Both the position numbers and the translations under genes were made by a program. The notes beneath the pieces are model-generated. The model was not told the origin of the DNA. It ran no database searches and worked only from the letters and a program-made list of their open reading frames with translations. Shown here piece by piece: positions 25,091 through 27,921 of a DNA stretch of 64,000 bases (its first letter is position 1; each line of letters starts with the position of its first letter). The stretch covers positions 62,001 through 126,000 of the forward strand of contig CAJXMH010000001.1 in NCBI GenBank assembly GCA_913056345.1, written 5' to 3'. The DNA comes from an uncultured Flavobacteriales bacterium (GTDB lineage: Bacteria; Bacteroidota; Bacteroidia; Flavobacteriales_E; Vicingaceae).

Positions 25091-25843
25091 TTATCCTACC
25101 TTTTTTGCAATATAAAAACCATAGCTTAAATAGTCTTTATAGCTTCGGTATTTTCTGATTTCATCTTTTTCAGCCTCCACAATAGCTTGAGCCAATTCGG
25201 CCTTTTTGTGTTTGGCCAAAAACTTCTCAAATCGATCTTCCATGGGTTTGTAGTAATTGTCCATCCAACTCTTTTCGCCTAAGTAGAAATAGCCAACAGG
25301 AGAAAAACCATTTTCTTCTAATACTTTCATTTTGTTAGAAGCAGTATCGATTTCAGGGTATTCATTATTCCAGTGTGCTTCAATTTCACTAGGGCGTGAA
25401 TTGCTTGTCCAAGTGATCTCACTCAAGGCAATGTATCCACCAACTTTTAGGTAGCCTTTCCATCTTTTTATTCCTGCTTCAAAACCCATTATGTAAATTG
25501 ATCCTTCCGCCCAGATCAGGTCAAATTGGGCCCGGTCAAAGGGTAAATCATCCATTGATCTTTCGAGAGTGGTAATTTGATCTTGCAAGCCATGGCTTTT
25601 GGCGTTTAGCTCAAGTTTTTCTAAAAAATCAGGGAATAGATCAACCGCCATTATATCAGCATTGAGGTTTTGAGCAAGCGAAATAGTCTGCGAACCAGTA
25701 CCACAGCCAATGTCAACCACTTTTAAGCGCTTTTTACTATCTAGCTCAATAAAGCTTAATGCCTTTAAGGTATCTTCACGGCTTCCCGGACCTTGTCTTT
25801 TAGCTCCTTTGTGAAAGTCAATCAATAATTCTATTTCTGTCAT
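25091..25843 (-). CDS. Class I SAM-dependent methyltransferase
   Basis: The 250-residue cytoplasmic protein has motif I VVDIGCGTGSQ (residues about 38-48), acidic AVDLFPDF after strand 2, and motif DLIWAEGSIYIMGFEAGIKRWKGYLKVGG, close to the Methyltransf_11/25 group. No signal peptide. Its start overlaps the HxlR regulator stop by 4 bases (ATGA type), so it is cotranslated with it. Its substrate is unknown; small-molecule or quinone methylation is plausible in view of the neighbouring MdaB. Confidence 0.88.
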   Translation of the reverse strand: MTEIELLIDFHKGAKRQGPGSREDTLKALSFIELDSKKRLKVVDIGCGTGSQTISLAQNLNADIMAVDLFPDFLEKLELNAKSHGLQDQITTLERSMDDLPFDRAQFDLIWAEGSIYIMGFEAGIKRWKGYLKVGGYIALSEITWTSNSRPSEIEAHWNNEYPEIDTASNKMKVLEENGFSPVGYFYLGEKSWMDNYYKPMEDRFEKFLAKHKKAELAQAIVEAEKDEIRKYRSYKDYLSYGFYIAKKVG

Positions 25844-26310
25844 TTATTTTCTTTTTGCTCTTGATTATTTTTACCTGTGTAATCCAAGCTGAGCAATTTT
25901 TCTCTATACTTATCTTCTAGGCTTTTGGCGAAAGTGGCCTTGTCATTCCGCAACAGATCAATTCCATCTCCTTCAACAATAGTTGGATGAAGGTCGCGCA
26001 AATGACCATCGCTCCAGTTGGCAAGCTCAACCAAGATCGGCGTCAAGGCGATTCCTTTTTCGGTTAAAAGGTAAAGGTTGGTCTTTTTGTTATCCGGACG
26101 TTTGGTTTTGAGTACAATACCCACTTCCTCCAAGATTTTGAGTTTCGCTGAAAGAATATTAGAGGCAATGGCTTCTTCACTTTGGGTAAAGTCTTTAAAG
26201 GTCTCTTTGCCTTCAACCAACATTTGCTTTATGATCACTAATATCCACTTATCGCCTAGAATATCTAGGGCTGAAGTAAAGGGACAATTACACCTGAAGT
26301 CGTGTTGCAT
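25840..26310 (-). CDS. HxlR-family transcriptional regulator
   Basis: The 156-residue winged-helix protein starts CNCPFTSALDILGDKWILVII, the HxlR signature, and continues with an acid-rich recognition region (SNILSAKLKILEEVGIV). HxlR members respond to electrophiles, quinones or aldehydes, often through an N-terminal Cys (here Cys7 and Cys9). It is divergent from the SnoaL/MdaB operon; the intervening 114 bases carry three similar 23-base imperfect palindromes, the likely binding sites. It overlaps the methyltransferase gene by 4 bases, so autoregulation of this pair is expected. Confidence 0.92.
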   Translation of the reverse strand: MQHDFRCNCPFTSALDILGDKWILVIIKQMLVEGKETFKDFTQSEEAIASNILSAKLKILEEVGIVLKTKRPDNKKTNLYLLTEKGIALTPILVELANWSDGHLRDLHPTIVEGDGIDLLRNDKATFAKSLEDKYREKLLSLDYTGKNNQEQKENK

Positions 26311-26328: not shown

Positions 26329-26351
26329 ATTAGTTGCGAATTGCAATTAAT
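26329..26351. promoter_or_regulatory. HxlR operator-like site 1
   Basis: A 23-base imperfect palindrome starting ATTAGTTGC and ending CAATTAAT. It agrees with site 2 at 18 of 23 positions and begins 30 bases before it, on the side of the hxlR start codon (26310). Confidence 0.6.
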
Positions 26352-26358
26352 AATAAAA

Positions 26359-26381
26359 ATTACTTGCAAAATGAAAGTAAT
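26359..26381. promoter_or_regulatory. HxlR operator-like site 2
   Basis: 23-base palindrome with perfect 7-base arms ATTACTT/AAGTAAT and a 9-base centre. It covers the -33 element (CTTG, 26363-26366) of the SnoaL promoter. Confidence 0.65.
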
Positions 26382-26393
26382 TATGTAATATTG
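26363..26393 (+). promoter_or_regulatory. Promoter of the SnoaL-mdaB operon
   Basis: CTTG (26363-26366), 19-base spacer, then TAATATTG (26386-26393), each one mismatch from the Bacteroidota TTTG and TAnnTTTG consensus. The elements lie under operator sites 2 and 3, an arrangement expected for repression by steric block. Confidence 0.55.
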
Positions 26394-26412
26394 CTTGCAT
26401 AACAAAAGTAAT
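26390..26412. promoter_or_regulatory. HxlR operator-like site 3
   Basis: 23-base site beginning ATTGCTTGCA and ending AAAGTAAT, 31 bases after site 2 (same helical face). It overlaps the -7 box and the expected transcription start. Confidence 0.65.
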
Positions 26413-26424
26413 AAATCAACAAGC

Positions 26425-27324
26425 ATGAAAAAAATTATCTACCTATTAAGCCTAAGTGGACTTTTGGCTGCCTGCCAAAATTTAAGTTCACAACCGCAAG
26501 AAAATAATTCTAATAAACAGTTGAAACAAAAAACAGAAAAAATGAGCAAAAAAGAGATTGTAGGCACTTTTCTAGGTGCAGTATTAAAAAATGATTCCGC
26601 TACCATGCGGGAATTGGCCAACGCAAATTATATTCAACACAATCCATTTATTCCCACGGGATTGGAACCTTTTATTAAGATGTTGCCGGTGCTGCAGGAA
26701 AATGGCACCACCGCTGAGAATGTTAGAATGTTTCAAGATGGCAACTACATATTTATGCATAACATCTGGCGAAATGCCAAGCCTTTTGGAGCCGATGAAA
26801 TGGTTTCCTTCGATATTATTCGCTTAGATGAAAATGGCAAAGTGGCTGAGCATTGGGATGCCATGACCCCATTAGTAAAAGAAACGGCGAGCGGAAGAAG
26901 CCAAACTGATGGACCTAAAGCAGCCAAGAACTTGGACCAAACTGAGGCCAACAAAAAAATAGCAAGGTCCATGGTAGAAGATATTTTAATGGGTAAAAAC
27001 CCTGATAAGATCGCAGATTACATTAGCGCTGAACAGTACGATCAGCATAATCCGGATATAAAAGACGGATTGTCGGGTATAATAGAAGCGGTAGAGTATC
27101 TTACTTCTCAAAACAATATGTTTCAATACACTAAGATTCACAAAGTTCTAGGCGAAGGTAATTTTGTACTGACGGTAAGTGAGGGTGATTGGAGCGGCAA
27201 GAAACATGTTTTTTATGATTTGCTGCGCTTTGAAGACGGCAAAGCAGTAGAGCATTGGGATGTGATCCAAGAGATTCCTACCGAAGGATTAGCAAATGAT
27301 AATGGAATGTTTGGTGGATTTTAA
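26425..27324 (+). CDS. Lipoprotein with two SnoaL/NTF2-like domains
   Basis: The longest frame begins at a TTG (26395), but the ATG at 26425 starts a lipoprotein signal (MKKIIYLL...LLAAC), so 299 residues are predicted. Two NTF2/SnoaL-like domains follow (about residues 45-165 and 180-299), each with the QHNP(F/D)I motif and ending in an AEHWD or VEHWD strand typical of the polyketide-cyclase-like family. The domains are duplicates. It is divergent from HxlR and precedes mdaB by 12 bases. Its chemical role is unknown; binding or turnover of a small hydrophobic molecule is likely. Confidence 0.85.
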   Translation: MKKIIYLLSLSGLLAACQNLSSQPQENNSNKQLKQKTEKMSKKEIVGTFLGAVLKNDSATMRELANANYIQHNPFIPTGLEPFIKMLPVLQENGTTAENVRMFQDGNYIFMHNIWRNAKPFGADEMVSFDIIRLDENGKVAEHWDAMTPLVKETASGRSQTDGPKAAKNLDQTEANKKIARSMVEDILMGKNPDKIADYISAEQYDQHNPDIKDGLSGIIEAVEYLTSQNNMFQYTKIHKVLGEGNFVLTVSEGDWSGKKHVFYDLLRFEDGKAVEHWDVIQEIPTEGLANDNGMFGGF

Positions 27325-27336
27325 AATAAGTAGACC

Positions 27337-27921
27337 ATGAAGAAGGCACTAATATTAAATGCTCATCAAGAATATCCGTTTGCTAAAGGTGAACTGAATA
27401 AAACAATCGCCAAAAGGATTAGAGACTATCTTAAAAGTGTTGGTTACGAAATAAAAACCACCACTATGAAAGATGACTGGAATGCAGATGAAGAGGTTGA
27501 TAAACACTGCTGGGCAGATGTAGTCATTTTACAATCTCCTACTAATTGGATGGGTTTACCTTGGAGTTTCAAGAAATACATGGATGAGGTTTACACCGCA
27601 GGCATGTTTGGTAAAATGAGTCAGAATGACGGTAGAACAGAAGCAGCTCCAAAGAAAAATTATGGTGGTGGTGGACTACTGCAAAACACCAAATACATGT
27701 TATCTCTAACTTTCAATGCACCCGAAGAGGCTTTTAATGATTCCGATGATTTTTTCGAAGGAAAAAGTATCGATGAGCTTTATTTCCCTCAACACATGAA
27801 TTTTAAATTTTTTGGGATGATACCGCTACCTACTTTTGCCTGCTTTGATGTCATGAAGAACCCCAATATTGACCAAGACTTTAGTAGACTCCAAAAGCAT
27901 CTTGAAGATAATTTTAATTAA
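27337..27921 (+). CDS. mdaB: MdaB-like NADPH:quinone reductase
   Basis: The 194-residue flavoprotein has the flavodoxin-like signature of MdaB: ILNAHQEYPFAKGELN at the start, WADVVILQSPTNWMGLPWSFKKYMDEVY, YGGGGLLQ, and the end PLPTFACFDVMKNP, with length equal to E. coli MdaB. The family transfers two electrons from NADPH to quinones, avoiding semiquinone radicals. It is the second gene of an operon with the SnoaL lipoprotein and has a strong terminator after it. Position near an HxlR regulator fits control by quinone or electrophile. Confidence 0.92.
   Translation: MKKALILNAHQEYPFAKGELNKTIAKRIRDYLKSVGYEIKTTTMKDDWNADEEVDKHCWADVVILQSPTNWMGLPWSFKKYMDEVYTAGMFGKMSQNDGRTEAAPKKNYGGGGLLQNTKYMLSLTFNAPEEAFNDSDDFFEGKSIDELYFPQHMNFKFFGMIPLPTFACFDVMKNPNIDQDFSRLQKHLEDNFN

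Follow-up and report, generated by a model that had tools for sequence, protein, structure and literature searches.

Three putative operators of an HxlR/DUF24 regulator shared with a divergent SnoaL lipoprotein gene and conserved among relatives

Background

In divergent regions of the MarR/DUF24 type, the gene for the repressor diverges from its target and the operators are common to both. YodB and CatR of Bacillus subtilis are MarR/DUF24 repressors that act through one or more boxes at promoters, and their targets include genes for the detoxification of quinones and catechols; at catDE there are two boxes for CatR and one for YodB (PMC6212828). An N-terminal Cys serves DUF24 regulators as the sensor of quinones, diamide and HOCl (PMC6943732, PMC8063818), and HxlR of B. 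subtilis senses formaldehyde by means of a Cys11-Lys13 bridge in helix 1 (PMC7835342).

Here we describe a locus in which three inverted repeats lie between a gene for an HxlR/DUF24 regulator (hxlR) and the divergent genes snoaL and mdaB in the window, the whole stretch of 64,000 nucleotides that was analysed. The window regulator has its family and an N-terminal Cys of the sensing kind in common with YodB and CatR, and its domain and the position of that Cys in common with the DUF24 proteins HypR and HxlR of B. subtilis. It differs from the YodB and CatR systems in phylum, in promoter type and in its conserved target, a SnoaL lipoprotein, and also in arrangement, its divergent region holding three sites that are nearly in phase, with promoter elements inside the operators. 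Compared with divergent regions of the MarR/DUF24 type, the locus is distinguished by the number of sites (three), by their conserved 31/30-bp spacing and by the dual role of two of them, which also provide promoter elements. It is a well-conserved but ordinary switch, in which regulator and operators have the regular arrangement of a known family. A literature search for an HxlR operator in Bacteroidetes or for an HxlR-SnoaL pair found nothing relevant, and the locus gives a precise candidate operator for a widespread, apparently unstudied regulator of Bacteroidota.

Results and discussion

Organization of the locus

Table 1. Genes, predicted promoter elements and operator sites of the hxlR-snoaL region (window coordinates)
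Feature	Coordinates	Strand	Description
SAM-dependent methyltransferase gene	25091..25843	-	PF13649, E 1e-15
hxlR	25840..26310	-	HxlR/DUF24 family winged-helix regulator, 156 aa; Pfam PF01638, E 1e-14; ATG at 26310
O1 (site 1)	26329..26351, core 26330-26350	.	hxlR side; 14/16 arm positions
O2 (site 2)	26359..26381, core 26360-26380	.	holds -33 TTG of the snoaL promoter; 15/16 arm positions
-33 element TTG, snoaL-mdaB promoter	26364..26366	+	TTG in 39/39 loci
-7 element TAATATTG	26385..26392	+	consensus TAnnTTTG; 19-bp spacer; predicted start near 26397
O3 (site 3)	26390..26412, core 26391-26411	.	covers predicted start; outer TTG ends the -7 element; 13/16 arm positions
snoaL	26425..27324	+	lipoprotein with SnoaL-like domains; PF12680 and PF07366; diverges from hxlR
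mdaB	27337..27921	+	MdaB-type quinone reductase, operon gene 2; PF02525, E 2e-30; MdaB structures, E 2e-58

The regulator contains an HxlR-type winged-helix domain (PF01638; 54.5 bits against a cut-off of 20.8), and its solved relatives include YodB, HypR and HxlR (Table 1). By their coordinates the methyltransferase gene and the 3' end of hxlR overlap by 4 nt, and the two genes probably form one co-transcribed operon; the methyltransferase gene was not found beside hxlR in the loci of relatives.

Three related sites in the intergenic region

Each site is an imperfect 21-bp inverted repeat of the form TTACTTGC-N5-GCAAGTAA. The initial annotation had placed related sites at 26329, 26359 and 26390 with spacings of 30 and 31 bp, and these are present as it gave them; a direct count likewise bears out the similarity that it claimed, with 18 of 23 positions identical between sites 1 and 2 and 19 of 23 between sites 2 and 3. 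The further claim that the spacing sets the sites on one face of the helix is approximately right, as 30 or 31 bp corresponds to about 2.9 helical turns. A repeat search recovered the three as a single family of 26 nt with the same spacing, and scoring all 21-mers of the window (64 kb) against the inverted repeat placed these sites in the top three ranks, the next best reaching 12/16.

The region has a G+C content of only 23%, which favours the occurrence of repeats by chance, but the likeness of the three sites exceeds that in 300/300 simulations: they share 16 identical columns, compared with a mean of 9.3 and a maximum of 15 in Markov-simulated sequences of the same AT-rich composition, and three nearly equally spaced copies as alike as these were found in none of the 300. 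Conservation in 28 relatives already refutes chance, and we regard a fortuitous origin of the repeats in an AT-rich intergenic region as exceedingly improbable.

Conservation among relatives

Relatives of hxlR, mostly 70-80% identical, were collected from 39 loci spanning several orders (Cyclobacteriaceae, Saprospiraceae, Flavobacteriales, Balneolaceae and other records), and removal of near-duplicates and one truncated locus left 35 distinct relatives. Conservation of the sites in relatives with the hxlR/snoaL gene order, named beforehand as the refuting test, holds: all three are kept in 28 of the 35, with like spacings of 30-32 and 28-31 bp, and a divergent homologue of the SnoaL lipoprotein gene is present in nearly all relatives with three sites. 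The operator arms are near invariant whereas the linker before O1 varies, and O3 is conserved together with a TTGC arm specific to it. Among the remaining loci, L029 and L037 have three sites at other spacings, L007, L024 and L025 have two clear sites only, and L030 and L040 are without the tandem site; the last five were counted against the explanation preferred below. In L029 the O3-O2 interval is 20 bp and not 31. The 11 bp lost amount to roughly one turn of the helix, and such a shortening would hold the sites in phase yet remove the usual promoter spacing.

The SnoaL-mdaB unit of the initial annotation is conserved in its snoaL part. The link to quinones through mdaB is not the conserved feature, as mdaB was found adjoining snoaL in just three loci, those of the window, L018 and L041, with some contigs ending too early to tell. 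The conserved target is snoaL, and mdaB is a rare addition. L011 and L052 retain the three sites together with the beginning of the SnoaL lipoprotein, but no snoaL homologue was found in either locus, a pattern suggestive of a disrupted target gene. A match to hxlR at E <1e-30 was found in 6 of 99 further genomes, most of them from the same family and class, and the SnoaL protein at E <1e-60 in none of 59 others; the locus is therefore patchy, a distribution that horizontal spread would fit.

Promoter elements within the operators

Promoters of the primary sigma factor in Bacteroidetes have a -33 element TTTG/TTG and a -7 element TAnnTTTG (PMC6847099, PMC9723704), and the predicted snoaL promoter is of this known type. 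At least five of six positions of the -7 consensus are matched in 37 of the 39 loci (5/6 in the window itself), and the spacer between the two elements is 18-20 bp in all 39 and 19 bp in 31. The initial annotation had set site 2 on the -33 element and site 3 on the -7/start region, and this placement is conserved in the 39 loci. Its positioning of site 1 toward hxlR is likewise confirmed, as the O1 core starts 19 bp upstream of the hxlR ATG in the window. The site lies 19-40 bp before the hxlR start and is conserved about 40 bp before it in most relatives; promoter elements for hxlR itself could not be fixed.

In 25 of 29 loci the outer arm of O3 deviates from the operator consensus precisely where it supplies the -7 element with its G, whereas the same arm position deviates in 8/29 loci for O2 and in 4/29 for O1 (Fisher p 1e-5 and 4e-8 versus O3). 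The locus is a clear case in which a conserved operator gives way at a single base so that a promoter element is preserved. With the TTG inside O2 and the end of the -7 element inside O3, the 31-bp spacing of this pair is bound up with the geometry of the promoter, and the phasing of O2 and O3 on the helix is therefore by itself no proof of cooperativity.

Association of the sites with HxlR

Two sites at 29-32 bp were found upstream of 45 of 53 HxlR homologues, a set that includes some close pairs and is not fully independent, whereas Markov simulation of upstream regions gave an expectation of 0.015. Paralogues of HxlR that adjoin unrelated genes retain two sites about 31 bp apart, and sites remain where the divergent gene is epimerase-like, an SDR gene or otherwise unrelated; the sites therefore track hxlR and not the neighbouring gene. 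In the opposite direction, 395 genomes of the class were searched with a blind tandem-site pattern built from DNA only; 11 of them, counting that of the window, had a match, and a reversed control pattern gave none. Nine of the 11 matches lie directly upstream of a gene of the HxlR family, three of these nine being of a different subtype (L072, L076 and L079), and another match (L075) lies inside a reading frame.

These associations bear on a different possibility, namely that another regulator owns the sites, or that they are promoter elements only, with HxlR a mere neighbour. One blind match without an adjacent hxlR (L078) speaks for it, but the retention of sites by hxlR genes across swapped neighbours and the nine matches adjoining HxlR-family genes make it very unlikely. 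The assignment of the sites to HxlR in the initial annotation thus gains support from association both ways, from hxlR to sites and from sites to hxlR. As dozens of distantly related Bacteroidota carry these sites next to the same regulator, comparison of sequences indicates that the three are almost certainly binding sites of the adjacent HxlR regulator.

The exceptional match, L078:1501-1544, is a tandem operator motif upstream of a DinB-like gene and by an SDR gene. The contig also encodes an HxlR of this type at another place (L068), and the DinB-like locus may be a remote member of the regulon.

Proposed mechanism of regulation

We assign a probability of about 0.8 to the reading that HxlR is an autoregulated HxlR/DUF24 repressor with three operators that occludes the snoaL-mdaB promoter and is released through Cys9. 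The sequences show the sites, their spacing, their overlap with the promoter, their conservation and their linkage to this regulator, from which protein binding, repression and not activation, the inducer and any cooperativity between dimers are inferred. An HxlR dimer would occupy each TTACTTGC-N5-GCAAGTAA repeat. With dimers on O2 and O3, both elements of the snoaL-mdaB promoter, -33 and -7, would be covered and RNA polymerase excluded, and a dimer at O1 would cover the hxlR start region, resulting in negative autoregulation. If an electrophile or oxidant modified Cys9, HxlR would leave the DNA, and snoaL and mdaB would be induced.

Alternatively, HxlR could bind the same sites and activate snoaL-mdaB when modified, in the manner of HypR or B. 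subtilis HxlR. These two proteins are activators, which we counted against the repressor reading; they are among the closest solved relatives of the window protein, and activation of HypR has been reported (PMC6943732). However, O2 lies on the -33 element and O3 on the -7/start region in every locus, a geometry suited to blocking polymerase, and only O1 is upstream of the promoter. We therefore consider activation unlikely and favour repression. A more extended reading, offered tentatively and with chances a little under even, is that HxlR has one kind of operator throughout Bacteroidota, with arms that also serve as -33 and -7 elements. Promoter geometry would then dictate the spacing of two dimers, 31 bp and nearly in phase, while a third site would extend the array to the start of the regulator; assembly of the three dimers on a single face of the helix may be cooperative.

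Cys9 is present in all 53 HxlR homologues and aligns with Cys14 of HypR and with the N-terminal Cys of YodB. Because it occupies the sensing position of these proteins, the release of HxlR probably involves sensing of an electrophile or oxidant through this invariant residue. We rejected a formaldehyde mechanism like that of B. subtilis HxlR, as that protein has a Lys two residues after its Cys and the window protein has Phe instead (Cys9-Pro10-Phe11). Any induction of the promoter by electrophiles would be measurable.

Sites elsewhere in the genome and variant operators

O2 is the sole match without mismatch to TTACTTKC-N5-GMAAGTAA in the 2.9-Mb genome. A search of the same genome for other regulon members gave nothing convincing (113 sites with up to three mismatches versus 100 for a reversed-pattern control), and 9 of 12 inspected two-mismatch sites elsewhere fall within reading frames. 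The genome also encodes a remote HxlR paralogue (28% identity), at which the tandem site is absent. Elsewhere in this genome, 4 bp upstream of a kinase-like gene (L081:1203; G000:C10:9702), there is a perfect TTACTTTT/AAAAGTAA inverted repeat. Upstream of more distant hxlR homologues (45-50% identity) in L056 and L054 the repeats are altered, for example to TTACTTTAAAATTTAAAGTAA, which suggests that operator and recognition helix have changed together.
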